Source: an uncultured Actinomycetes bacterium (GTDB lineage Bacteria; Actinomycetota; Acidimicrobiia; Acidimicrobiales; RAAP-2). From it: DNA of 39,346 nt. A program made the position numbers and the translations under genes. Under the pieces are notes generated by a model that saw only the letters and a program-made list of their open reading frames with translations, had not been told where the DNA came from and did no database searches. Shown in pieces: positions 765 to 32,420 of this stretch. The DNA lies in assembly GCA_903847955.1 (NCBI GenBank), contig CAINFA010000016.1, forward strand, positions 1 through 39,346, written 5' to 3'. The number at the start of each line of letters is the position of its first letter. The first letter of the stretch is position 1.

Positions 765-810
765 CTCGCATTCTGGGACCTGCTCCTTGGTTCCCACAGA
801 TCGGAGCACA

Positions 811-1845
811 GTGACAGCAGCAGTGCACAAGGTGGCCGTCATCGGCGGTGATGGGATCGGTCCTGAGGTGACCGCCGAGGCCCTGCGGGTGGTGCGCGCC
901 GCAGGCGTGGCACTCGACACCACCGAGTTCGACCTCGGTGCGGCTCGCTACCTGCACGATGGCGAGGTGCTCTCCGAGGACACCTTGGCCGAGCTTCGAG
1001 GCTTCGACGCCATCTTGCTCGGCGCCATTGGGCCAGCGCTCGGCGACACGAGGATCCCAGGAGGCACCTTGGAGCGGGGTCTCTTGCTCCGCCTCCGGTT
1101 CGCACTCGACCTCTACATCAACCTCCGCCCCTTCACCGGTGCGCCTGGATCCATCGCCCAAGGTGCGGACTTCGTGGTGATTCGTGAGAACACCGAGGGC
1201 ACCTACGCCGGTGAGGGTGGGTTCCTCCGCAAGGGCACCCCTCACGAGGTGGCCACCCAAGGTTCGGTGAACACCCGCTTTGGGGTCGAGCGCTGCGTCC
1301 GGTTCGCCTTCGAGCTGGCGAGCCGCCGGCCCGCCAAGCACCTCACCCTCGTGCACAAGACCAACGTCTTGACCTTCTCTGGTGACCTCTGGCAGCGGAC
1401 CGTCGATGCGGTTCGAGCCGAGTTCCCAGAGGTGGAGGTGGACTACAACCACGTCGACGCAGCCTGCATCTACCTCGTCGAGCGGCCCAGCCGCTACGAC
1501 GTCATCGTCACCGACAACCTCTTCGGTGACATCCTCACCGACCTGGCCGGCGCAGTCTCGGGTGGCATCGGCTACGCCGCGTCAGCCAACTTGAACCCCT
1601 CGAAGACGGGACCGAGCCTGTTCGAGCCCGTGCACGGTGCGGCCCACGACATCGCTGGCCAAGCCATCGCCAACCCCTTGGCTGCCATCTCCTCGGCCGC
1701 ACTCATGGTCGAGGACCTCGGGCTCTCAGACGCCGCCGCACGGATCTCCGCTGCGGTCACCGTAGAGATCGCCTCCACCCAACCCAATCAAGCTCGCCGG
1801 TCGACCGCTGCGGTCGCCGACGCCGTCATTGAAAGGCTCCGCTGA
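811..1845 (+). CDS. leuB: 3-isopropylmalate dehydrogenase
   Basis: 344 residues. An NAD-dependent beta-decarboxylating dehydrogenase converting 3-isopropylmalate to 2-oxoisocaproate in leucine synthesis. Seen in order: N-terminal [31 protein letters not shown] (catalytic Lys region), [20 protein letters not shown] (metal-binding Asp residues) and [19 protein letters not shown] (NAD-binding segment). The order and wording match actinobacterial LeuB. The track starts at a TTG at 787; the GTG at 811 has GGAG 4 nt upstream and gives the usual N-terminus. A GTG at 823 is also possible. It shares one base with ilvE (TGATG). Next to cimA, it probably also acts on the methylmalate intermediate of the citramalate route. 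Confidence 0.93.
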
Positions 1846-2771
1846 TGCCGCTGACCCCCACCACTGCGATCTGGATGGATGGCGAGTTCGTCGCCTGGGA
1901 TGACGCCAAGGTGCACGTGCTCAGCCACACCATGCACTACGGCTCAGGTGCCTTCGAGGGCATCAGGGCGTACAAGACCTCTCGAGGTCCTGCCATCTTC
2001 CGTCTCGAGGAGCACATCGTTCGCCTCTTCAACTCGGCGAAGATCTTCATGATCGACATCCCCTTCACGGTCGAGGAGCTGATGGAGGCCACGAGCGAGA
2101 CGGTGCGCCGGAACGACATGGCTGAGGGGTGCTACATCCGTCCCCTCGTCTACCTCGGGTACGGCGAGATGGGGCTGAACCCATTGCCCTGCCCGGTCAA
2201 CGTGGCCATTGCGGTCTGGCCCTGGGGTGCGTACTTGGGCGAGGACGGCCTCAACCACGGCATCAACCTCAAGATCTCCTCATGGGTGCGCCACAACCCG
2301 AACTCCATGCCCACTGCTGCCAAGGGGGTGGGGATGTACGTCAACTCCTCGCTGGCCAAGATCGAAGCCATCAAGGCCGGCTACGACGAGGCAGTGCTGT
2401 TGGCGGAGGACGGCCAAGTCTCAGAGTGCACCGGTGAGAACCTCTTCGTGGTGCGCAATGGCGTGATCTACACCCCTGACAGCTCAGGCGCCGGCGCGCT
2501 GGAGGGCATCACCCAAGACACGGTGACCACCATCGCCCACGACCTCGGCTACGAGGTCCGTGAGACCACCTTGGTGCGCACCGACCTCTACACCGCAGAT
2601 GAGGCCTTCCTGACCGGGACGGCGGCGGAGGTGGTGCCGGTGCGCAGCGTCGACGACCGGATCGTCGGCACGGGCACCCCAGGTCCCCTCACCTCGGCCA
2701 TCCAGCAGCACTACTTCGCCGCGGTCCGAGGCGAGCTCCCCCAGTATGAGCACTGGCTCACCGTTGTCTGA
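1845..2771 (+). CDS. ilvE: Branched-chain amino acid aminotransferase
   Basis: 308 residues, a fold-type IV PLP aminotransferase that reversibly transfers amino groups between glutamate and the 2-oxo acids of leucine, isoleucine and valine. [14 protein letters not shown] lies near residue 30, the PLP lysine is in [10 protein letters not shown] (Lys160), and the cofactor-binding region [11 protein letters not shown] and [10 protein letters not shown] follow; all are typical of IlvE, as is the length. The ATG overlaps the leuB TGA by one base, so translation is coupled. The 3' end overlaps cimA by 26 nt. It can carry out the last step of both leucine synthesis and citramalate-derived isoleucine synthesis. 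Confidence 0.94.
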
Positions 2772-4425
2772 GGTGGGTCCGGGAGGCTGGCACCGCCACG
2801 GAGGCCACGTCCATCGTCACGACAGCCACGGGTTTGAGCTCCCGCTCTTGCCGACAGCAGTCGACATCTTCGACACCACCTTGCGCGATGGCTCCCAGCA
2901 GGAGGGCATCTCGCTCTCGGTGGAGGACAAGGTCAAGGTGGCCGAGCAACTCGACCACTTAGGCATCACCTACATCGAGGGCGGCTGGCCCGGGGCCAAC
3001 CCCAAGGACTCCGAGTTCTTCGCCCGCGCCCACCGAGAGCTGCGGCTGTCGACCTCCACCTTGGTGGCCTTCGGCTCCACCCGGCGAGCTGGGATCACGG
3101 CCGAGGCAGACGAGGGCCTGCGGACCTTGGTCGAGGCCAACACTCCTGTGGTCTGCATCGTCGCCAAGGCGTGGGACCGCCACGTCGACGAAGCGCTGCG
3201 AACCTCCCACGACGAGGCCATCAGGATGGTGGCGGACTCGGTCGCCTTCTTGCGAGCCAACGACAAGCGGGTGTTCCTCGACGCCGAGCACTTCTTCGAT
3301 GGGGACCGCCACAACTCGAGCTTCGCCCGGGCCGTGCTGCGGGCGGCCGAAGAGGCCGGTGCTGAAGCGCTCGTGCTGTGCGACACCAACGGTGGCACCC
3401 TGCCGGACCAGCTGGCAGCGGTGGTGGCTGACGTGGTGGCGAGCACCTCCATTGGGATCGGCATCCACTGCCACAACGACGCCGGGGTAGCGGTGGCGAA
3501 CTCCTTGGCGGCCGTGGGGGCTGGCGCCACCCAAGTCCAAGGCTGCGTGAACGGCTACGGCGAGCGAGCGGGGAACACCGACCTGTCTGCCGCTATCGCC
3601 AACCTCTCGCTCAAGCTCAACATCACCACGGTGCCCGCCGAGCGGCTCGAGCGCCTGACCTCGGTGAGCCACCACATCGCCGAGCTGGTCAACCTGCCAC
3701 CCAATCCTCAGCAGCCCTACGTCGGGGCATCGGTCTTCGCCCACAAAGGCGGGCTCCACGCCTCGGCGGTGGCCCGACGCCGCGACCTCTACGAGCACAT
3801 CTCCCCCTCGCTGGTGGGCAACGCCATGCGAGTGGTGGTCTCTGAGATGGCGGGTCGCTCGACGCTGCAGATCAAGGCCGAGGAGCTGGGGCTCGAGCTC
3901 GACCCCTCCATCGTGGGGGGCATCTTGGAGGACCTCAAGCAGCTGGAGTACGAGGGCTACCACTTCGAGGTGGCCGATGGCTCCCTCGAGCTCTTGCTCC
4001 GGCGTGCGACGGGGTGGACGCCGACGTTCTTCGAGGTGGAGTCCTTCCGGGTCATCACTGACCACCACGAGCAGCTGCGAGGCGGCGACCTCTCCACCGA
4101 GGCCACGGTCAAGGTGCTCATCGCCGGTGAGCGCAAGGTCTCCACGGCCGAAGGCAATGGCCCGGTCAACGCACTCGACTCGGCCTTGCGAGGCGCGATC
4201 GCCGACGTCTACCCCGCCCTCCACCAGGTGAAGCTCCAGGACTACCGGGTGCGCGTGCTCGATGCGGGCAAGGGCACCGAAGCGGTCACCCGAGTGCTCA
4301 TCGACTCGGCGAACCCTGCTCGCACCTGGACCACCATTGGGGTCTCGGAGAACATCATCGAGGCCTCCTGGCAGGCCTTGTACGACTCGATCATCTACGC
4401 ACTGGTGCACGCCGAGGACCGCTGA
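2746..4425 (+). CDS. cimA: (R)-citramalate synthase
   Basis: 559 residues. Condenses acetyl-CoA with pyruvate to citramalate, the first step of the threonine-independent isoleucine route. The catalytic HMGL/TIM-barrel domain has DTTLRDGSQQEGIS (residues 43-56), YIEGGWPGANPKDSEFF (diagnostic of CimA rather than LeuA), LCDTNGGTLP, GIHCHNDAGVAVANS (metal-binding His) and GYGERAGNTDL. The C-terminal LeuA-type dimer domain (about 430-559) is present, so allosteric control, probably by isoleucine, is expected. The start overlaps ilvE by 26 nt. A GTG at 2773 is an alternative. Either start leaves a His-rich extension (HRHGGHVHRHDSH) before the catalytic domain, which the family usually lacks. Confidence 0.92.
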   Translation: MSTGSPLSEVGPGGWHRHGGHVHRHDSHGFELPLLPTAVDIFDTTLRDGSQQEGISLSVEDKVKVAEQLDHLGITYIEGGWPGANPKDSEFFARAHRELRLSTSTLVAFGSTRRAGITAEADEGLRTLVEANTPVVCIVAKAWDRHVDEALRTSHDEAIRMVADSVAFLRANDKRVFLDAEHFFDGDRHNSSFARAVLRAAEEAGAEALVLCDTNGGTLPDQLAAVVADVVASTSIGIGIHCHNDAGVAVANSLAAVGAGATQVQGCVNGYGERAGNTDLSAAIANLSLKLNITTVPAERLERLTSVSHHIAELVNLPPNPQQPYVGASVFAHKGGLHASAVARRRDLYEHISPSLVGNAMRVVVSEMAGRSTLQIKAEELGLELDPSIVGGILEDLKQLEYEGYHFEVADGSLELLLRRATGWTPTFFEVESFRVITDHHEQLRGGDLSTEATVKVLIAGERKVSTAEGNGPVNALDSALRGAIADVYPALHQVKLQDYRVRVLDAGKGTEAVTRVLIDSANPARTWTTIGVSENIIEASWQALYDSIIYALVHAEDR

Positions 4426-10984: not shown

Positions 10985-11201
10985 TAGTAAATCTAGTGAC
11001 ATAGTGCATTGTTAGCACACCGACCGATCTCCGCCACCGCGGCATGGGGCTGGTGGGTACGACGCTTCGTGACCGCTCAGGGGGTAAGCGAGATGGACGC
11101 ACCGCTCGACGCGGCGGCGGTCGCCCGATCGAGGTGCGGCCCGATCGCTCTCTCCGACCGCCGTTGGCCACGAGGTCCGGGATCGAAGGTTGCTCAGGTC
11201 C

Positions 11202-11254: not shown

Positions 11255-14200
11255 GTGCAGCTTGGCAGTTGGACCTCGAGGGTGGCGGGCGCCCTGTCAG
11301 CCCTGCTCCTGGCGCTGTCGTTCCCGCTCATCTCGACCGCAGGATCCGCAGCTGCCGCGTCCGGTGTCACCTTGGCCGCATCAGCCAGCCCCACGGTGTT
11401 GTTCGGTACGCCCAGCTCAATCACCCTCACCGCCACCAATGGTGGTGCCACGCCGGTCTACAACCTCTCGCTCCGAGATGTCCTACCCGTCGGGGTGAGC
11501 TACGTGAGTGGGTCGAGTGCACCGGCGATCTTGGGCGAGCCCACGGTCATCGCCAACCAGCCAACGTTGGGTGCGACCACCTTGGTGTGGCCCAACATCT
11601 CCGACATCGAGCCGGGTTCAACCACCGCGCTCACCTTCTCGGTTCAGGCCGAATCGGGCACCAACGCCGCTGCGGACAACCTGCTGCCGGGCAACACCTA
11701 CGCCGACGATCCCTCGGCCTACGTCTCCACCGATCCCCGCTACGCCCCCGCCTTCGGCAACGACGGCTCCCCAATGACCGGGGCGTCCATTGAGGCCATC
11801 CACCCACCTGCACCGGGTGCAACCTTGATCACGCCGCTCGAGATCTCCAAGGCAGAGCCGAGTCCGGAGTCCAAGCTCCTCCGGGGGGTGCACCAGCACC
11901 CGACGGTCTACGCCCTCACGGTCACCAACTCCCCGGTGGCGGCCACCGATGCGGTGACCGTGGAGGATTGGTTGCCGGCTGGCCTCGAGTTCCTCGGCTG
12001 CGGCGGGGTGGACAACACCACGAATGCCGTTGGCACGAACGCAGGATCCGCCCTCGAGTATCCCGGCGCGACCCACCTCGGGGTTGGCCTGACCGCACCA
12101 CAAGGCTGCAGTGCGCCAACCACGGTCGAGACCCTCGAGACCACGCCCCCGGGGCGGCCGGCCGGGGTCTACACCCACGTGGTCTGGAACCTGGCTGACC
12201 TCGCTCCTGGCGCCACCACCACGCTCCGCTACTACGCCGGCATTCCGTTGCGGGCCAACGCGGCGAGTTGGGCTGGTGGAACCCCGGCCACCACTGGTGC
12301 CCAGGCGGCCAACTTGGACAACAACACCGGTCCGTACACCTTCGATGGCGAGAGCCTGACCAACCTCGCCCGAGTCAGCGGTGACTTCCAAGGTGGACTC
12401 GCCCCTGGAACGGTGAACCCGGTGCACGCCGATGGCACCGACACCGTCGTGGCCAAGGACCTCTCGGTCACCAAGTCGGTCTCCACCTCGAGCTTCGTTG
12501 GTGGGCAGCACTTCACCTACGCCCTACTCATCAGGACCGGTGAGTACCGCTACATCAGCTCCCCGCACCTCACCGATGACCTCCCCCGGGGGATTTGCCC
12601 CATCGACTCGGCCACCAACTACACCTCCACCGACGCTGACTGCGCGCCAGTGGCTGGCTCGGACCCGACCCTGGTCGAGAACGACACCGGCGCATCTGAG
12701 GTGCTCGGGCCGACGAGCGCGAGCTACTGGACCGTGGCCGCCGATGGCCAAGGTGGCTTCCACCTCTCGTGGCCCCTCCCTGAGTTGCCACTCGGCGCAA
12801 CGGCTTCGCCGGGCGACCTCGCCCCCAACGTCAACGCCACCTTGACCTTCACCGCGGCCGACCGACTGAGCTACGACGACGGCAAGGGCAACACCACCCC
12901 GGTGGTGGGTGGCGACACGGTGACCAACACCTCGAGCATCGGTGGTACCTCTACTGATACCTGCTTCTCGGGCACCGCCGAGGACCCAGTCGCCGACCCC
13001 ACCTGCACCGGCTCGTCCACCCCCATCACGGTGAACGATCCTGATCGGGATCCGTCGCCATCGGCAGTGACGGATTCGTCGTCGGCTTCGCAGTCCGCAG
13101 CGCTACCAACCATGATCAAGCGGATTGCCGATCCCTCAAGCGTGGGTTCGCCGGCCAACTGCGCCACCGCCCACTACATCACCACGCCGATCGAGCCGTA
13201 CCCGGTGTACCAAACCGGCGACCGCATCTGCTTCCAGCTCGAGGTGGACTTTCCCCTAGGAGTGGACTCCCGCAACGCCACGATCACGGACCTGCTGCCT
13301 CCCAACACCACCTACGAGGTTGGCTCGGCCACTCCCGTCGCTGGTCCGAGTGGCAACACGGTGACCGAGGCCTTCAACGACAGTCAGTCTGCGAGCGGGC
13401 TGTTGAGCTGGAAGCTCGGCGATCCAGCCCCGAGCGGGAACGCCTACGCCGGTGCCGGGCAGCGTTTCTTGGTGGACCTGTCGGTGGTTGCGACCGCCGA
13501 TCCCAGTTCGGGCAACACCTTCGATCTCACCGGGAACTTGATGAAGGGCACGGTCTCGAACACGGCCGGGAAGACCTACTCGCTGCGCTCCCAAGTCAAC
13601 TACACCCTCTCGAGGCCGGTCCTGCACCTCGCCAAGGGCATCGTCTCGGTGGCACGAGGAGGGTCGACGGTGCTCGGGCCCTTCGTGCCCCCCGCTGCCA
13701 CCGCCACGGTCGAGGCCGGCGACTTCGTCACCTACGCCGTTGACCTCACCAACACCGGCTTCGCTCCGGCCTTCGACGCTCAGGTGCTCGACGTCCTCCC
13801 GCCCCAAGTGGCCAGCTGCGCCGCGGTCAGTGCCATCTCGAACTCCGGCAGCTGCTCGGTGACCGGTACCGGTACGGTCGAGCTCCGCTGGCCGTCGTCT
13901 GCGGGTATCTCGGTCCCCGCTGCGACGAGCGGCAGCCCGTCGGTGCCCGGGAGCACCCAGCTCACCTACCAGATGGTGGTCCCCGCTGGGATTGGCGCTG
14001 GGGAAGCCCTCACCAACCACGCCGGCGTGGTGACCTACGGCACCGCCGACAACACCGGGAGCTCGAGGACCGAGGTCCCGAAGAACAACATCGATTCCAC
14101 CAACTACCCCTCGAGCACCTGGAACTCGCCCGCCGCCGACGACACGGCCACGGTGACCACCCCGGCGGCCACCTTGGCCAAGTCGGCCCAACCTAAGGTG

Positions 14201-17200
14201 AACGGTCCCTCGAGTGCCACCATCGGCGAGCCCATCGTCTACACCCTGACCGCCACCGTGCCGGCGGGTACCACCTTGTACGGCGGCACCTTGACCGATG
14301 CCTTGGGCACGGTGAACCCACAGCTGCGCTACGACGGAGGGGCGGTGAAGGTCACCGCCAACGGCGTGTCGAACCCTGCTGGGTACACCGTCGACGCCTC
14401 GACGACGACGAACTCGGTGGTGGTGCACCTCCCCGCCACCGTGCAAGCCCCGACCTCTGGGGCGATCGTGGTCACGGTGAGCTTCACGGCCACGGTGACC
14501 AACAGCTCCACCAATGCCCAAGGCGCCACCGCCACCAACACCGCCACGCTCGGGTTCTCGAACTCCCAGGGAACCGCTTCGACCCTGTCGGCGTCTGCCG
14601 CAACCACCATCGTCGAGCCCAACCTGACCTTGACCAAGACCGATTCGCCGGGTGGCCCCTACCAAGCCGGCCAGCAGGTCACCTACACCGTCACTGCCTC
14701 GAACCCTTCGGGGCAGGCCGCGTCCACGGCCTACAACCTGGTCATCACCGACCCGGTCCCGGCGGGACTGACCGTCGTTGCAGGCTCGATCTCGGCTCCT
14801 GGGGTGCTCTCCACCAATTCGACCACCGGCCAGCAGACCATCACCTGGGACTTCGGCCACGCGTCGAGCATCGCGGTGGGGGGTTCCACTTCGGTCAGCT
14901 TCGCTGCCACCATTCCGAACCCCGTCGTTGCAGGCACGTCCTACAAGAACACCGCCTCGGGGACCATCTCGAGCTTGGATCCAACCCTGTACCCAGGCGC
15001 TCGGACGCTCGGCGACCGCTACCAAGCCGCGGCCCAGAACGTGGTGGCAGTGGTCAGCCCAACGGTGGCCAAGTCGGCCAACCCGACGACGACCACCATC
15101 GGCGTGTCGACCACCTACACCGCCACGGTGACCTTGCCGGCCAACCTGTCGTTCCCGGACCTCACTGCCTTCGACGCCCTGCCGAACGGGATGACCTTCG
15201 ACCGGGGCGTCACCCCGACGCTGCAACCGAGCGGCTTCACCGCAGGAGCGTGCGCCAGTGGCTACGTCGGTTCTGTGCTCGCTCCTCCCGTTGCCATCAC
15301 CGGTGGAGGGACGCGGCTTGGCTTCTTCCTCGGGAGCCTCTCGAGCTGCCCGTCGGTTCGAACGGTGACCATCACCTACGCCGCGTACCCATCGAAGACC
15401 TATGCCTCGGGCGGAGCGGTCACGGCACCGGCCAACCTGCCCAACGCCTTCTCGGTGGCGTGGAATGCCACAGACACCACCGGTGGCACGCCACCCACGA
15501 CCGTGCCCGACCCTGCGAGCTACCAGTACCAGGTCGCCCCGGTGGTCGCTCCGATCACCGTGATTGAGCCGAAGCTCGTCCTCGTCAAGACCGTCACCAC
15601 CTCGACGCCCACACCCGGGGTGCCGTTCAGCTTCACGGTGACGGTGACCAACAGCGGCACCTCCCCGGCCTACGACGCCACCCTCACCGACCCACTACCC
15701 CAAGGCATCGTGGATCCGCTCAGCGGTCCCACGACGAGCGGCACGAACGCAGGAACCGCGACCTACACCAGCGCCACACGTTCGATCAGGTGGCAGGTTC
15801 CCGGCCCCATCGCCCCCGGGGCGAGCGTCCAGCTGACCTTCTCCACCGAGCTCGTCGCATCGGCACAGCTCGCCACCAACCAAGCCATCACCAACACAGC
15901 GACCGTCTCGAGCTACTACGGCGTGCCGGCGACGATTGCCCAGGCCACGCCGAGCCGCTACGTCACCTACGGCCCGGTCACGGGCCAGGTCACCGTCACC
16001 GCCACCTTCCCGGGTCTCGTGCTGCAGAAGACCACGCCGAGCGGACCCGCGGCAACGGTGAACCAGCCCTTCCCGTGGAAGCTCGTGCTCACCAACTCCA
16101 CGGTCGCCCCAGCGGCGACCACCGCCATCGTCGACACCTTGCCGCCGGGGTGGACCTACGCCGCGGGCACAGCCATCGTCACCTCGGCAGCGGGGGGCTC
16201 GAGCCCGGTCGAGCCCCAGCTGAGCACGAGCGGTGGCAACCAGGTCCTCACCTGGCCGACCACCGGGCCGCTCAGCAAGGGTCAGCAGATCTCCGTCAGC
16301 TTCAGTGCGGTGCCCTCGACCTCTGCCCCGTTCGCCTCGACTAACACCGCTCGAGCGTCGGGCACCGATGGCACAGGTGCGAGCGGGAACCTCTCTGGTC
16401 CCTACCAATCCAACGTGGCCTCTGCCACCGCCACCGTGGTGATGGCCGACCTTCAGATCGTCAAGAAGGCGGTCTCGAACCCGTTCATTGCCGGTGGCTC
16501 GACCAACGCCTACACCTTGGTGGTCACCAACAACGGCCCGAGCGCAGCACAGGGTCCCATCACCGTGGTCGACGATGCTCCCGCTGGGATGTCGTTCACC
16601 TCGGCCACCGGGTCTGGATGGACGTGCTTGCTCGGCCAAGCCGGAGCCTCGGTCACCTGCACGACCCCCGGGCCCCTCACCAATGGGCAGGTGGCACCAA
16701 CGATCACCGTGCAGGCCGCGGTCCCGGCCTCGGCGCTCGGGAGCTTCACCAACACCGCGACGGTCTCATCGCCCACCTACGACCCGAACCTGGCCAACAA
16801 CACCTCCTCGGTCCAGGTGGACGTCGTCGCCCGGGCCGACCTCGCCATCACCAAGTCCCACCAAGGCCCTGTGGTGGCGGGTCAGCCCGTGCTCTACACC
16901 CTCACCGTCTCCAACCTCGGCCCGTCGGACTCACCCGCGCCAGGGACCCCGGTGACCGTGACCGACACCTTGCCGGCGGGAGAGCACTTCCTCAGCGCCA
17001 AGGGTGCGGGCTGGAGTTGCCCTTCGAGCGCCGCAGCCCAGCAGTTCACCTGCAGTGCCACCACCGGCTTCACGGTGGGCTCGACCTCGCAGATCTTGGT
17101 GGAAGCCTCCGTCGATTCGTCCGTGGCGAGCGGAACCACCTTGACCAACGTCGCCGCCATCTCCCAGACAGCGATCACCGATCCCAACCTGGCGAACAAC

Positions 17201-20068
17201 ACCGCTTCGGACCCCGCCCAGGTGGCCACGTCGGCGGATCTCTCCATCGACAAGACCCACGACCCTGCGTCCCAGTTCCGTCCCGGGGTCTCGGGGGACG
17301 GAACCTACCGGTTCGCGGTCTCCAACGCCGGACCATCCAATGCCTCGAACCCGACCGTCGTCGACACCTTGCCCCCGCAGCTGACCTTCCTCGCCTTCTC
17401 TCCGGGGAACGACCCGTCGTGGTCCTGCGCACAGGTGACGGGGACCCAGGAGCTCTCCTGCACCCTGAACCACCCACTCGCCGCCGGCCAACAGGCTCCC
17501 TCCATCGGGGTAGAGGTCTCGGTGAACTCCAACGTGACGAGCTCGGCCAGCATTGACAACACGGCGACGGTGACCTCGCCGACCCCCGATCCTGACGAGT
17601 CCAACAACACCTCCACTGACCTCGTCTCCTCGGGCACGAGCGAGGCGGACCTCCTGATCACCAAGACCCACGCCGGAGCCTTCACGGCTGGGACGACCGG
17701 CACCTACCACCTCACCGTGGAGAACCTCGGTCCAGCTGATGTGCCTGCGTCGAGTCCGATCACCGCCACCGATGAGCTTCCTCCGGGCCTGCACTACGTG
17801 TCGGGTGGCTCCTCGCCATGGGCCTGTAGCGCCAATGGCTCTCAGGTGACCTGCGTTGACCTCGCCGGGCTCGCTGCTGGGTCCACGGCACCACCGATTG
17901 TGCTGACCGTCGCGGTCGACCCAGCGCTGACCCCCCAGATCGTCCTCAACCAAGCGACGGTCTCAAGTCCGGTACCCGATCCCAACCCGACGAACAACGA
18001 AGCCAGCGATCCCACCGAGATCGTGGCCTCGGCAGACCTCTCGGTGGTCAAGACGCCAGTTGGTGCCTTCACCCCGGGTACCAATGGCACCTACACCTTG
18101 GTGGTCTCGAACGCAGGGCCTTCTGATGCGGCAGAGCCGGTCACCGTCACCGACCCGCTGCCCGATGGGCAGAGCTTCGTCAGCGGCACTGGCACGGGTT
18201 GGACCTGCAGCGCCCGAGGGCAGTTCGTGACCTGCACCTTGGCGGGTGCCCTCGTGCCGGGAGCCACCGCGCCGACCCTGACCCTGACGGTCTTGGTCGA
18301 CCCAGGCTTCGTTGGCACCTCGATGACCAACGTGGCCCGGGTCGACAGCCCGACCCCCGACGACAACCCGCCGAACGACACCTCGATGGTGACCGTCCCG
18401 GGGATGAGCCCCCAAGCCGATCTGTCCATCGTCAAGTCGCACACCGGAACCTTCGTCGCTGGCGAGGAGGCCAGCTTCTCCCTCGTCGTGACCAACAACG
18501 GCCCATCGCACAACGCAGGAGGCATCGTGGTCACCGACCCGCTGCCAAGCTCGCTGCAGTACCTCTCGGCGACGGGCACTGACTGGCAGTGCAGCGAGGA
18601 TCCCAGTACCTCGACCGTGACCTGCACCTACGCCGCAGCCTTGCCGGCAACGGGCGCCAACGTCGCGCCGCCCATCACCATCACGGTGTTGGTGGACGCC
18701 TCGACGACCCTCACCAGCGACGTGAACGTTGCCTCTGTGGCCTCGACGACGACGGTCGATCCCAACCCATCGAACGACACCTCCACGGACCCCTTCGCGG
18801 TCGGCCACGAGGCGGACCTGTCGGTCACCAAGGTGCACACCGGAACGCTGCTCGTCGGCCAACGGTCGACCTACACCCTCGTGGCATCCAATGCCGGACC
18901 CTCTGATGCCGCCGCACCTGTCCGTGTCACCGACGACCTTCCACTCGGCCTCACCTACGAGAGCGCTACGGGGTCGGGGTGGAGCTGCGATGCCACCGGC
19001 CAGAGCGTCACCTGCTCGCTGGCGGGTTCGTTGCCCGCTGGGGCCACGGCGGCGCCCATCGCGCTCACCGTCACCGTGGAGGCCTCGGCGTATCCCACGG
19101 TGACCAACGTCGCCACCGTCTCGAGCCCAACGCCAGACCCAGATCCATCGAACAACACGGCACGAGACCCCGGTGTGGTGGAGCCATCGGTCGACTTGGC
19201 CATCACCAAGACCCACCAAGGCGATCCCTTGGTGTCGGTCCCCTTCGACTACACCATCGACGTGGTGAACCATGGCCCGACGCCAGACCCCGGACCGGTG
19301 CAGGTGGTCGATCCACTGCCCGACCCCCTCCGGGCGCGCAAGATCGTCGTGGTGCAAGGTCATGGTTGGACCTGTCAGCTCCTCCACAACGGTGCTGAAG
19401 TTCGGTGCACGGGTGCACTGGGCCTTGGGGTTGGTGAGGGTGCGAGCTTCCGGCTCACTGCAGTCGCCTCGACGACCGGCACGGTGACCAACGTCGCCAC
19501 CGTCTCGTCGAGTGCGACCGACGTCGACCCATCGAACAACACCGCTCCTGACCCGACCACCATTCGGCCAGCTGCCAACCTGACGGTGACCAAGACCTTG
19601 CTCACCCCGACCCCTCTTCGGACCGGAGGTCCAGCCGACTACCAAGTGGTGGTCCACAACCTCGGCCCCTCTCCCGCCACCGGGGTGACGGCCACCGATC
19701 AGGTCCCGGCGGGGCTCTCGGCGACTGGCGCCTCGGGTGCGGGGTGGAGCTGCCAGGTCAGCTCATCACTGGTGTCCTGCTCCTACGGACCCGCCTTGGG
19801 GGTGGGGGCCGATGCCACCTTGGTGATCACCACCACGGTGACCGCCACGAGTGGGACGGTCCTCAACTCGGTGGTGGTGGGCTCAGGGCTTCCTCCAACG
19901 ACGGGGTCGGGGCGCCCAAGCGCCAAGACGCCACCAGCACCAATCTCCAACGGTGGCCTCCCCTTCACCGGGCTCAACCCGTGGCCGACGCTGCTGCTCG
20001 CCGGTGGGTTGCTGTCGCTCGGCACCTTGAGCCTCGCGCTCGACAAGCGTCGTCGGCACGCACGCTGA
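11255..20068 (+). CDS. Giant LPFTG-anchored DUF11-repeat surface protein
   Basis: About 2,937 residues from the GTG at 11255, which has GGAGG 4 nt upstream and begins directly at a signal peptide (RVAGALSALLLALSFPL, then an Ala-rich cleavage region). The track's start at 11009 adds 82 residues with no export signal. The mature protein is about 19 tandem DUF11/B_ant_repeat Ig-like domains, each opening with a phrase like ADLSITKTH and containing YTLVVTNNGPS, VTDPLP and NVATVSSPTPDPNPSNNT. The first ten are heterogeneous; the last nine (from residue 1731) are regular. The C-terminus has LPFTG (2902-2906), a hydrophobic segment and KRRRHAR, a sortase sorting signal. Probably a cell-wall adhesin or stalk; ligand unknown. 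No sortase gene is in the window. Confidence 0.93.
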   Translation: MQLGSWTSRVAGALSALLLALSFPLISTAGSAAAASGVTLAASASPTVLFGTPSSITLTATNGGATPVYNLSLRDVLPVGVSYVSGSSAPAILGEPTVIANQPTLGATTLVWPNISDIEPGSTTALTFSVQAESGTNAAADNLLPGNTYADDPSAYVSTDPRYAPAFGNDGSPMTGASIEAIHPPAPGATLITPLEISKAEPSPESKLLRGVHQHPTVYALTVTNSPVAATDAVTVEDWLPAGLEFLGCGGVDNTTNAVGTNAGSALEYPGATHLGVGLTAPQGCSAPTTVETLETTPPGRPAGVYTHVVWNLADLAPGATTTLRYYAGIPLRANAASWAGGTPATTGAQAANLDNNTGPYTFDGESLTNLARVSGDFQGGLAPGTVNPVHADGTDTVVAKDLSVTKSVSTSSFVGGQHFTYALLIRTGEYRYISSPHLTDDLPRGICPIDSATNYTSTDADCAPVAGSDPTLVENDTGASEVLGPTSASYWTVAADGQGGFHLSWPLPELPLGATASPGDLAPNVNATLTFTAADRLSYDDGKGNTTPVVGGDTVTNTSSIGGTSTDTCFSGTAEDPVADPTCTGSSTPITVNDPDRDPSPSAVTDSSSASQSAALPTMIKRIADPSSVGSPANCATAHYITTPIEPYPVYQTGDRICFQLEVDFPLGVDSRNATITDLLPPNTTYEVGSATPVAGPSGNTVTEAFNDSQSASGLLSWKLGDPAPSGNAYAGAGQRFLVDLSVVATADPSSGNTFDLTGNLMKGTVSNTAGKTYSLRSQVNYTLSRPVLHLAKGIVSVARGGSTVLGPFVPPAATATVEAGDFVTYAVDLTNTGFAPAFDAQVLDVLPPQVASCAAVSAISNSGSCSVTGTGTVELRWPSSAGISVPAATSGSPSVPGSTQLTYQMVVPAGIGAGEALTNHAGVVTYGTADNTGSSRTEVPKNNIDSTNYPSSTWNSPAADDTATVTTPAATLAKSAQPKVNGPSSATIGEPIVYTLTATVPAGTTLYGGTLTDALGTVNPQLRYDGGAVKVTANGVSNPAGYTVDASTTTNSVVVHLPATVQAPTSGAIVVTVSFTATVTNSSTNAQGATATNTATLGFSNSQGTASTLSASAATTIVEPNLTLTKTDSPGGPYQAGQQVTYTVTASNPSGQAASTAYNLVITDPVPAGLTVVAGSISAPGVLSTNSTTGQQTITWDFGHASSIAVGGSTSVSFAATIPNPVVAGTSYKNTASGTISSLDPTLYPGARTLGDRYQAAAQNVVAVVSPTVAKSANPTTTTIGVSTTYTATVTLPANLSFPDLTAFDALPNGMTFDRGVTPTLQPSGFTAGACASGYVGSVLAPPVAITGGGTRLGFFLGSLSSCPSVRTVTITYAAYPSKTYASGGAVTAPANLPNAFSVAWNATDTTGGTPPTTVPDPASYQYQVAPVVAPITVIEPKLVLVKTVTTSTPTPGVPFSFTVTVTNSGTSPAYDATLTDPLPQGIVDPLSGPTTSGTNAGTATYTSATRSIRWQVPGPIAPGASVQLTFSTELVASAQLATNQAITNTATVSSYYGVPATIAQATPSRYVTYGPVTGQVTVTATFPGLVLQKTTPSGPAATVNQPFPWKLVLTNSTVAPAATTAIVDTLPPGWTYAAGTAIVTSAAGGSSPVEPQLSTSGGNQVLTWPTTGPLSKGQQISVSFSAVPSTSAPFASTNTARASGTDGTGASGNLSGPYQSNVASATATVVMADLQIVKKAVSNPFIAGGSTNAYTLVVTNNGPSAAQGPITVVDDAPAGMSFTSATGSGWTCLLGQAGASVTCTTPGPLTNGQVAPTITVQAAVPASALGSFTNTATVSSPTYDPNLANNTSSVQVDVVARADLAITKSHQGPVVAGQPVLYTLTVSNLGPSDSPAPGTPVTVTDTLPAGEHFLSAKGAGWSCPSSAAAQQFTCSATTGFTVGSTSQILVEASVDSSVASGTTLTNVAAISQTAITDPNLANNTASDPAQVATSADLSIDKTHDPASQFRPGVSGDGTYRFAVSNAGPSNASNPTVVDTLPPQLTFLAFSPGNDPSWSCAQVTGTQELSCTLNHPLAAGQQAPSIGVEVSVNSNVTSSASIDNTATVTSPTPDPDESNNTSTDLVSSGTSEADLLITKTHAGAFTAGTTGTYHLTVENLGPADVPASSPITATDELPPGLHYVSGGSSPWACSANGSQVTCVDLAGLAAGSTAPPIVLTVAVDPALTPQIVLNQATVSSPVPDPNPTNNEASDPTEIVASADLSVVKTPVGAFTPGTNGTYTLVVSNAGPSDAAEPVTVTDPLPDGQSFVSGTGTGWTCSARGQFVTCTLAGALVPGATAPTLTLTVLVDPGFVGTSMTNVARVDSPTPDDNPPNDTSMVTVPGMSPQADLSIVKSHTGTFVAGEEASFSLVVTNNGPSHNAGGIVVTDPLPSSLQYLSATGTDWQCSEDPSTSTVTCTYAAALPATGANVAPPITITVLVDASTTLTSDVNVASVASTTTVDPNPSNDTSTDPFAVGHEADLSVTKVHTGTLLVGQRSTYTLVASNAGPSDAAAPVRVTDDLPLGLTYESATGSGWSCDATGQSVTCSLAGSLPAGATAAPIALTVTVEASAYPTVTNVATVSSPTPDPDPSNNTARDPGVVEPSVDLAITKTHQGDPLVSVPFDYTIDVVNHGPTPDPGPVQVVDPLPDPLRARKIVVVQGHGWTCQLLHNGAEVRCTGALGLGVGEGASFRLTAVASTTGTVTNVATVSSSATDVDPSNNTAPDPTTIRPAANLTVTKTLLTPTPLRTGGPADYQVVVHNLGPSPATGVTATDQVPAGLSATGASGAGWSCQVSSSLVSCSYGPALGVGADATLVITTTVTATSGTVLNSVVVGSGLPPTTGSGRPSAKTPPAPISNGGLPFTGLNPWPTLLLAGGLLSLGTLSLALDKRRRHAR
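16445..19957 (+). repeat. Nine tandem DUF11 domains with paired cysteines
   Basis: In-gene repeat units start at 16445, 16835, 17234, 17645, 18032, 18416, 18812, 19190 and 19574, spaced 126-137 codons. Each holds a first Cys after Trp (GWTC, GWSC, SWSC, PWAC, DWQC) and a second about 8-14 residues later (VTC, FTC, LSC, VRC, VSC), suggesting one disulfide per domain. Units end in Asp/Asn-rich linkers such as DPNPSNDTS. Similarity is at the protein level; the DNA has diverged, so recent duplication is not indicated. Confidence 0.88.
19958..20065 (+). other. Sortase cell-wall sorting signal
   Basis: Encodes LPFTG, a hydrophobic run (WPTLLLAGGLLSLGTLSLAL) and the basic tail DKRRRHAR. Sortases cut such motifs between Thr and Gly and join the protein to the wall. 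LPFTG is a known variant of LPXTG. Confidence 0.88.
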
Positions 20069-29862: not shown

Positions 29863-31188
29863 ATGGGAGCCGCCGCATCGTCGACGCCTCGAGTGCTCAT
29901 CATCGGTGGTGGCTTCGGCGGCGTCTTCGCTGCCCGCAGGTTGGCCAAGGCGCCAGTGCAGGTGACGATCCTCGACCGGAACACCTCAAACCTGTTCCAG
30001 CCCTTGCTCTACCAGTGCGCGACCGGCATCTTGTCCGAGGGGCAGATCACCCTTCCGCTCCGAAGCCTCGTCCGTCGGTACCGCAACTGCACGGTGCTCC
30101 AAGGTGAGGCGGTGGCGCTGAACGCTGAGACCAAGGTCGTCTCGGCCCGCCGTCCTGACGGGTCCACCTACGAACTGGCCTACGACTACCTCATCGTCGC
30201 CGCAGGGATGCGGCAGAGCTACTTCGGCAACGATCGCTTCGCCGAGTTCGCACCGGGTATGAAGACGCTCGACGATGCGCTCGAGATTCGACGCCGGATC
30301 TACGGCGCCTTCGAGATGGCCGAGAGCCTCCCCACCCCCGCTGAGCGGAAGGATTGGCTGACCTTCGCGGTGGTCGGCGCTGGGCCAACCGGGGTCGAGC
30401 TGGCCGGACAGATCCGAGAGCTCGCGCTCAAGACGATCGCCAAGGAGTTCACCCACATCGACCCCACCGAAGCGAGGGTGCTGCTCTTCGATGGTGTCGA
30501 CGCGCCGCTCCAGGTGTTCGGCGAGGCGCTCTCTGCGCGTGCGGTACGAGACCTCGAGGGCCTCGGCGTCGAGCTGCACATGGGGGTCTTGGTGGTCGAC
30601 GTCGATGCACGCGGGCTGACCGCCAAGTCCCGCAGCGACGGCCGACACGAGCGGTTCGCGGCCCGAACCGTGCTGTGGACGGCAGGGGTCGAAGCTGTTC
30701 CCTTCGTCAAGGTCGTGGCCGAGGCACTGGGGGTCAGCCAAGATCGAGCTGGGAGGATTGCCGTCGAGGAGGACCTGACCGTACCTGGGCACCCCGACGT
30801 CTGGGTCCTGGGCGACATCATGGCCCTGAACGGGCTGCCGGGCGTTGCCGAGGTTGCCCTCCAAGGTGGCCTGCACGCTGGAGGGCAGATTCGCCGACTG
30901 GTCGAAGGTCGTGCCAAGCCCGAGGAGCGCTTCAGGTACCGAGACCTCGGGAGTGCGGCCTACATCTCGCGCTTCAAGGCCGTCGTGCACGTCGGGCGGT
31001 TCAAGCTCTCTGGGTTCCTCGCCTGGTTGATCTGGGGGTTCGTCCACCTCGCGTTCTTGGCGAGCCATCGGCACCGTGCCAGCACCGTCACGAGCTGGAT
31101 GTTCAACCTGGCTCGAGGTCACCGGACCGAGCGGGCCTACCCTGAGGCGCTCGAAGGTCGTCGGTCGTCGGTGCCGGAGTCCCCGTGA
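29863..31188 (+). CDS. ndh: Type II NADH dehydrogenase (NDH-2)
   Basis: 441 residues, a single-subunit flavoprotein that passes electrons from NADH to quinone without pumping protons. Seen: the FAD-binding RVLIIGGGFGGVFAARRL at the N-terminus, LYQCATGILSEGQITLPLR, YDYLIVAAGMRQSYFG, the NADH-binding VVGAGPTGVELAGQI, VWVLGDIMAL (FAD contact), and a C-terminal membrane-binding region with LSGFLAWLIWGFVHLAFL. The wording fits membrane-bound NDH-2 rather than other disulfide-oxidoreductase-fold enzymes. The ATG at 29863 is chosen over the track's 29803 because it starts just before the FAD motif and carries the leaderless -10 pattern. The stop overlaps the next gene (GTGA). Confidence 0.9.
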   Translation: MGAAASSTPRVLIIGGGFGGVFAARRLAKAPVQVTILDRNTSNLFQPLLYQCATGILSEGQITLPLRSLVRRYRNCTVLQGEAVALNAETKVVSARRPDGSTYELAYDYLIVAAGMRQSYFGNDRFAEFAPGMKTLDDALEIRRRIYGAFEMAESLPTPAERKDWLTFAVVGAGPTGVELAGQIRELALKTIAKEFTHIDPTEARVLLFDGVDAPLQVFGEALSARAVRDLEGLGVELHMGVLVVDVDARGLTAKSRSDGRHERFAARTVLWTAGVEAVPFVKVVAEALGVSQDRAGRIAVEEDLTVPGHPDVWVLGDIMALNGLPGVAEVALQGGLHAGGQIRRLVEGRAKPEERFRYRDLGSAAYISRFKAVVHVGRFKLSGFLAWLIWGFVHLAFLASHRHRASTVTSWMFNLARGHRTERAYPEALEGRRSSVPESP

Positions 31189-32420
31189 GGTCGAGCAGCC
31201 GTCGACTGCCGGTCGGCGTCTTGTGCATGGTGGCGGCCTTGGTCACCCTCGGAGGTGCAGCGGTTCGCTCGGGCGCCTCCACGCCGAGCCTGCCGAACTT
31301 GGCGGTGACCACCTTGGGGCCACTCGAGACCTCGAGTGAGCATGCCGGGAACTACTGGATCGACCGCGATGAGGGCATCAGCGCAGCACTCGGCGGCTCG
31401 AGGTCACTGTGGATCTTCGGTGACACGACGGTCGTCCGCAAGGTGGCCGGCACCGTGACCCGCCTGTCGTTCATCACCGGTTCCACTGCCGCCGAGGGTC
31501 GCACCCCCGTCCTCAAAGCACCAACTGCCTTAGATGAGGTGCAGGTGGGGAGCACGGCGGCGAACCCCACGACCTACCCGAGTCACTTCATGGCGAACCC
31601 AACCGCACTGTTCGAGCCGGGGCGTGCCACACCGTGTCTGAACTCCTCAGCGGGGTTTCCCGCACGATGGGTGACGGGTGCGGCGCTCATACCGTCGACC
31701 ACGACGGTGCTCATCACCTTCTACGACGTGTGCCTCGAGTCGAACACCTCCTATCCGGTCGAGGCCTGGGGCTTCACCGAGTTCAACACGTCCACCAACG
31801 CCTTCGTGGTGCCACCAACTGAGGTGTTCGGCCCGGCGCCACTCGGCGCAACCTTGCCACTGGCCGACCGCTTCGAGGCTCCGGTGTTCACCGCCGGCGG
31901 CAAGCTGGTCCTGTTCTCGAGTCAGTGCACGAACCAGGTGGGAACGACGTGTATCGCCGGATCGGTCAATGCGGTCTCCATGGTCCCCACCTTGGCCAAC
32001 CTCGAGAACCCGGCGAGCTACGTGCCGATGGCGCTCCACGTCGATGCCACCTCCAAGCCCTGGGCGCCGCTCAAAACGGTGTCGGTCAACCTCTACCCCG
32101 GCTCGGGGGGCTCGATCCCGAGCTTCGTGCTCGTTGAGCAGACCGATGACAGCGGGGACCTCGCGATCTACCGTGGCTCCACAGCCACTGGGCCGTTCCA
32201 CGAGGTCGGGACTGCCCGCCTTCCAGGTTGCGACGGGCCTCCGCCGATTGACGCCAACGGGGTCGAGTCGATCTCGCACTTCTGCTACGCCTACGTCGGC
32301 CACCCGGAGATGTCCCAGGGGTCAACGTTGGTGTTGACCTACTTCCGACCGGGCTACCTGACCCCCGGTGGTCACCTCATGGTCGTCTCGGTGCGGCTCC
32401 CGGTGAGCGCGGGGATGTGA
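31185..32420 (+). CDS. Secreted DUF4185-like beta-propeller protein
   Basis: 411 residues. The N-terminal RSSSRRLPVGVLCMVAALVTLGGAA is a signal peptide with a basic start. The mature region begins GNYWIDRDEGISAALGGSRSLWIFGDTTV, the kind of WxxDxG...LWxFGDT signature seen in DUF4185/DUF5005 proteins with a five-bladed propeller fold related to glycosidases. Later blades include HFMANPTALF, DRFEAPVFTAGGKLVLFSSQC and DLAIYRGSTATGPF. Substrate is unknown; sugar-polymer binding or hydrolysis is a family-level guess. Several Cys (four or more) could form disulfides outside the cell. GTGA overlap with ndh means coupling, although a functional link is not obvious. Confidence 0.8.
   Translation: MRSSSRRLPVGVLCMVAALVTLGGAAVRSGASTPSLPNLAVTTLGPLETSSEHAGNYWIDRDEGISAALGGSRSLWIFGDTTVVRKVAGTVTRLSFITGSTAAEGRTPVLKAPTALDEVQVGSTAANPTTYPSHFMANPTALFEPGRATPCLNSSAGFPARWVTGAALIPSTTTVLITFYDVCLESNTSYPVEAWGFTEFNTSTNAFVVPPTEVFGPAPLGATLPLADRFEAPVFTAGGKLVLFSSQCTNQVGTTCIAGSVNAVSMVPTLANLENPASYVPMALHVDATSKPWAPLKTVSVNLYPGSGGSIPSFVLVEQTDDSGDLAIYRGSTATGPFHEVGTARLPGCDGPPPIDANGVESISHFCYAYVGHPEMSQGSTLVLTYFRPGYLTPGGHLMVVSVRLPVSAGM

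Follow-up and report, generated by a model that had tools for sequence, protein, structure and literature searches.

A predicted sortase-anchored fiber of nineteen Ig-like DUF11/CLIPPER-type domains in an uncultivated actinomycetotal genome

Gene and domain layout

The window, meaning the whole 39,346-nt stretch of DNA analyzed here, contains an open frame on the plus strand that runs from a GTG at 11255 to a stop codon at 20066–20068 (whole gene 11255..20068) and encodes a surface protein of 2,937 aa, matching the single gene of ~2,940 aa described in an earlier note made from the sequence alone. Another in-frame start, a TTG, lies upstream at 11009, but the GTG is favored because it opens a signal-peptide-like stretch and has GGAGG just 5′ of it. 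This N-terminus (VQLGSWTSRVAGALSALLLALSFPLISTAGSAAAA; 11255..11359, +), recognized by reading the sequence alone, agrees with the signal peptide noted earlier. GC content by codon position (0.58/0.60/0.84) is typical of a coding gene here, lysines are scarce (37 in 2,937 aa), and a promoter scan 5′ of the gene returned no match.

Since the protein is repetitive and the genome is a draft (2.28 Mb in 245 contigs, 89.6% complete), the long frame could in principle be an artefact of assembly or gene calling; the earlier note had named an assembly artefact as grounds for refutation. Repeats within the gene's DNA are short (40–65 nt) and at most 80% alike, and a search of the gene for tandem arrays found none, so that misassembly is unlikely: the repeats are too divergent to be confused in assembly. 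Collinear homologs of like size also occur in independent assemblies, one of 2,921 aa in a one-contig genome (L009) and one of 3,088 aa in a record titled chromosome (L050; NZ_CP078077.1). We therefore rejected the artefact explanation, to which we give almost no credence.

Segmentation divides the protein into exactly ten irregular domains, D1–D10 (145–218 aa; residues 36–1729), and nine regular ones, D11–D19 (107–137 aa; residues 1730–2879), as the two-part build proposed in the earlier note would have it. Over its whole length the protein matches Pfam DUF11 (PF01345; E=3.8e-193, 630 bits against a cut-off of 24.6), and NCBIfam reports DUF11-type repeats together with TIGR04226, an isopeptide-forming fimbrial domain. 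The earlier description of the ten N-terminal domains as DUF11-like holds singly for D1, D2, D5, D7 and D9, which, with D11–D19, pass the single-domain DUF11 cut-off, but not for D3, D4, D6, D8 and D10, which miss it. Pfam gave no confident match for D4 alone, and D6 is nearest to GramPos_pilinBB, a pilin backbone domain, and to TIGR04226. No adhesive-domain family scored above cut-off in Pfam and NCBIfam scans of the protein.

Isopeptide triads, cysteine pairs and predicted structure

The DUF11 domain, lately renamed CLIPPER, forms a Lys–Asn isopeptide bond with the assistance of an Asp; in the 9IFR crystal structure the bond joins Lys715 to Asn806 with Asp748 as the catalytic residue, and this bond raises thermal and protease resistance (PMC12617251). 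The regular domains match 9IFR by sequence (2.6e-9 with a profile). Alignment to 9IFR places the Asp in 19/19 domains, the strand-A Lys in 18/19 (D2–D19) and the full Lys-Asp-Asn triad in the same 18, the Asn of D4 and D8 being alignment-dependent.

All domains lie on the plus strand. In the Ig-like D1 (11360..11824), modeled with pLDDT mostly >90, the position of the isopeptide Lys is taken by A42. The alignments assign triads to the enlarged Ig-like D2 (11825..12448; K199-D238-N370), the Ig-like D3 (12449..13102; K407-D441-N558), D5 (DUF11; 13613..14161; K794-D846-N921), the GramPos_pilinBB/TIGR04226-like D6 (14162..14614; K976-D1015-N1095), D7 (DUF11/TIGR04226; 14615..15052; K1128-D1166-N1232), D9 (DUF11; 15566..16006; K1445-D1479-N1547) and the DUF11-like D10 (16007..16441; K1592-D1627-N1697). 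In these seven domains and in D11–D19 (16442..19891), where each DUF11/CLIPPER domain combines a triad with a Cys pair, the Asn is unambiguous. Homolog and domain-only alignments differ over the Asn of the two remaining Ig-like domains: D4 (13103..13612) reads K622-D679-N761, with Asn 754 in the domain-only alignment, and D8 (15053..15565) reads K1273-D1307-N1397 in the homolog alignment, where the domain-only alignment gives A1391.

Several patterns argue that these residues are placed and retained as triads. The diagnostic Lys position takes 18 of the protein's 37 lysines; even if a window as wide as 7 residues is allowed, the binomial chance of this is ~1e-18. When 28 homologs are aligned with the query, the triads of D3–D10 rank with the most strongly conserved positions, and in the regular arrays of the family K, D, N and both Cys are at least 90% conserved. 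Across homologs, the Lys and Asn of D1 are present or absent together (12/1/1/32; Fisher 4e-9), as are those of D2 (35/1/1/9; Fisher 9e-8), both values ignoring kinship. Parsimony on the tree leaves only four cases per domain (D1, D2) in which Lys and Asn change in like direction on a shared branch; pairs on well-supported branches agree with this and are too few for significance. Eighteen domains (D2–D19) thus carry the residues for an internal Lys–Asn bond, and by analogy with 9IFR each of them may well close one.

Cysteines are unevenly spread over D1–D10 (12 in all) and number exactly two in each of D11–D19, confirming that the N-terminal domains have fewer Cys apiece. The regular pairs follow a WxC...C pattern, and each of these nine membrane-proximal domains probably closes a disulfide. 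Disulfides accompany ~30% of CLIPPER isopeptide domains (PMC12617251), so the double cross-link predicted here is known in kind.

AlphaFold models D1–D3 as three beta-sandwich domains (39 family rows; pLDDT 88) and D15–D16 with a pLDDT of 97. Foldseek matches to D1–D3 include integrin alpha leg domains, 3LSO, SdrG, SdrD and SpaD; their TM-scores are low (~0.2, reflecting the multi-domain arrangement), so that they indicate Ig-like sandwiches and not function. Matches to D15–D16 are integrins, the isopeptide-containing C-terminal domains of AgI/II (e.g., 2WZA) and PrgB.

Among the nearest described counterparts are CLIPPER stalk proteins such as Acinetobacter silvestris B9T28_05395, the protein of 9IFR, which likewise has tandem CnaA-like Ig domains with Lys-Asp-Asn triads (PMC12617251). 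That protein is Gram-negative and 2,129 aa long, and it has adhesive domains of the CshA type and an anchor resembling OmpA, whereas the one described here has a sortase-type tail and no known adhesive domain. The Cys pairs also differ, being CTTC in 9IFR and WxC...C, in a different place, here.

Sorting signal, sortase and the pilin alternative

The C-terminal section (19892..20068, +) comprises a linker, the motif GGLPFTG, a hydrophobic run and the basic tail DKRRRHAR. The earlier note had seen a full sortase signal: the LPFTG-hydrophobic-RRR layout stands, but a generic LPXTG HMM gives the tail 13.7 bits, below its cut-off of 15.9, and the signal is therefore recognized by layout and not by HMM. 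Most complete homologs share the layout, their C-termini consisting of a motif similar to L[P/A]x[T/S]G, a hydrophobic run and a basic tail; a few homologs assigned to Dormiibacterota have VPDxG instead. Five proteins of a freshwater type (L021, L030, L032, L039 and L053; 1,790–1,993 aa) keep the core and end in YVVVPF or similar, without a sorting signal, which suggests either another mode of attachment or release.

A search of the genome found one sortase, on a contig (C221) other than that of the giant gene. Its best NCBIfam class is E (NF033747), at 145.4 bits against a cut-off of 160. The catalytic His, Cys and Arg are present (AGHRTTW, TLTTCNP, TRLVV), as is the beta3/beta4-loop Tyr after GH (GHYP). 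Class E sortases classically prefer LAXTG. SrtE1, which has H228-Y229 at the corresponding GH-Tyr position, is reported to be able to recognize Ala or Pro at P3 (PMC5148588). This class-E-like enzyme is the candidate for anchoring the giant protein, and further sortases may be missing through genome incompleteness. Although the sortase that the earlier note had asked for was found, 59/61 relatives have one, against only 5/61 that have the N-terminal part of this gene, which makes its co-occurrence with the giant gene permissive rather than diagnostic and the test a weak one. A literature search for DUF11 in combination with class E sortase returned nothing.

The sortase gene (L001:118-1125, minus strand), the only one detected, adjoins the gene of an uncharacterized 335-aa protein. 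Other sorting-signal proteins of the genome were sought by profile; one protein (L069) has a tail of the form VPAAGN-hydrophobic-RRRRSAA, a possible second sorting-type tail.

Isopeptide domains and an LPXTG anchor are also features of the pilins SpaA/SpaD and RrgB, and the giant protein could accordingly be a polymerizing pilin, many copies of which a sortase would join into a pilus. D6–D7 match TIGR04226 (an RrgB D2-type isopeptide domain) and GramPos_pilinBB, and SpaD is among the structure matches. Unlike those pilins, however, the protein is one very long chain, ~2,940 aa that would reach outward without polymerization, and it has neither a pilin motif nor a pilin–sortase cluster: the sole candidate for a pilin-motif Lys, VPKN (K943), is not conserved, the strict motif searched for occurs in no homolog, no sortase or recurring partner gene was found in homolog flanks, and the genome has its one class-E-like sortase and no class C. 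We consider the pilin reading highly improbable and rejected it for want of a conserved pilin Lys and a pilus cluster.

The conserved N-terminal core and its possible role

The homolog search proposed in the earlier note, with the N-terminal 648 aa as query, found relatives of the protein at 46 loci in the genome collection and in 4/60 relatives. The 46 loci belong to Acidimicrobiia, Thermoleophilia and Actinomycetes and to MAGs titled Candidatus Dormiibacterota. Overall there are ~49 distinct loci (one record is shared with the relatives' set), of which ~42 are long enough for domain-by-domain comparison. A D1–D3 profile detects the family in 12/397 sampled Actinomycetota species; its distribution in the phylum is widespread but patchy.

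D1–D10 are collinear, one-to-one orthologous and similarly spaced in most of the ~42 homologs (the domains fit less well in a few, including those of Microbacterium and Leucobacter), whereas the number of regular-type C-terminal domains varies from 0 to 12. By sequence, D1–D10 form a fixed core conserved across the phylum, and the C-terminal array is the variable part. The N-terminal domains do differ from one another, as the earlier note had observed, but each is conserved in its place across distant bacteria; the accompanying proposal that variable N-terminal domains may confer binding specificity is not upheld, since they are a fixed core and not a hypervariable binding region. The conserved portion of the protein is its N-terminal ten-domain core rather than the regular array.

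Five close homologs (L012–L016) belong to MAGs from peat whose titles name Candidatus Dormiibacterota or Changshengia; they are ~40–42% identical to the query and group with it in the tree; some have VPDxG-like tails. Transfer or mislabeling of the MAGs could account for them. The flanks of the homologs share no conserved neighbor gene: the few open frames in common are general genes, synteny among close relatives or pieces of the giant protein, and a conserved gene neighborhood was rejected. Carriage on plasmids was also rejected, D2 having no match in plasmid records.

Conservation within the core is by far the highest in D2. This domain has 36 columns that are at least 90% conserved, against 5–16 in the other core domains, and most invariant residues of a 39-row alignment fall within it, including the loop residues R-G, E245, E268, N335 and N353-LDNN-357. 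Its match to DUF11 is partial only. Because of this conservation and the invariant polar loops, we single out D2 as the foremost candidate for binding or for a metal site, and as the domain likeliest to make contact with a partner or bind metal.

All 19 domains could instead be stalk, with no head, in a passive coat or spacer that serves shielding, an S-layer-like function or cell–cell spacing. The lack of a non-Ig head domain and the modeling of D1–D3 as three beta-sandwiches fit such a coat, and among fibrillar-adhesin-like proteins clusters with stalk-only N-termini are known, one of them DUF11 (PMC9210967). However, the conservation of D2, with its invariant polar loop residues, is far above what a stalk needs, and a presence as patchy as 12/397 species would be easier to explain for an accessory function than for a structural coat. 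We regard a passive coat as unlikely, though a more serious contender than a pilin.

The reading that we prefer, with a probability of roughly 0.7, is that the protein is a secreted, sortase-anchored, single-chain fiber of 19 CnaA/CLIPPER-type Ig-like domains, similar to fibrillar adhesins. After export the domains would fold, D2–D19 would each close an internal Lys–Asn isopeptide bond with a buried Asp as catalyst, and the nine membrane-proximal domains would add their disulfides. The product would be a rod tough both mechanically and to proteolysis, ~80–90 nm long at 4–5 nm per domain, with the fixed ten-domain section, including D2, outermost at the tip and the C-terminal array as a replaceable spacer. 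The "giant DUF11 protein" thereby becomes a concrete hypothesis of a covalently stapled fiber in uncultivated Actinomycetota.

Great length, a repetitive stalk and a surface anchor, all characteristic of fibrillar adhesins, are present, and an adhesive role is suggested by analogy with that protein class; as no known adhesive domain scores above cut-off, we use only the label "fibrillar-adhesin-like". Proteins so named by Monzon et al. (2022; PMC9210967) are likewise long and anchored, with stalk domains at the N-terminus, and their DUF11 has a structure resembling integrin alpha-X (4NEN), a PDB match also obtained here. That study described them from clustered N-terminal regions, whereas the present protein has a core of ten domains whose collinear order is conserved in distant Actinomycetota. 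DUF11 stalks in such proteins are already recognized (PMC12617251, PMC9210967), and the protein joins a known kind. For the conserved ten-domain core and its D2 we found no description in the literature. It is possible, and we put it forward tentatively, that D1–D10 constitute an undescribed phylum-wide family in which D2 is a new binding or Ca-binding Ig domain carried on an interchangeable, doubly cross-linked stalk. Should the protein prove ordinary, the result is a well-supported annotation for a quarter of the window. Culturable relatives with core homologs (Microbacterium, Arthrobacter, Cryobacterium and Labedella) make the role of D2, and of stalks combining isopeptide and disulfide bonds, directly testable.

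Elsewhere in the window, a 411-aa open frame without a Pfam match (31185-32420, +) lies beside an NDH-2-like oxidoreductase. Genes of isopropylmalate dehydrogenase type, class IV aminotransferase and LeuA type stand in a row at 787-4425 (+) and make up a branched-chain amino-acid cluster.
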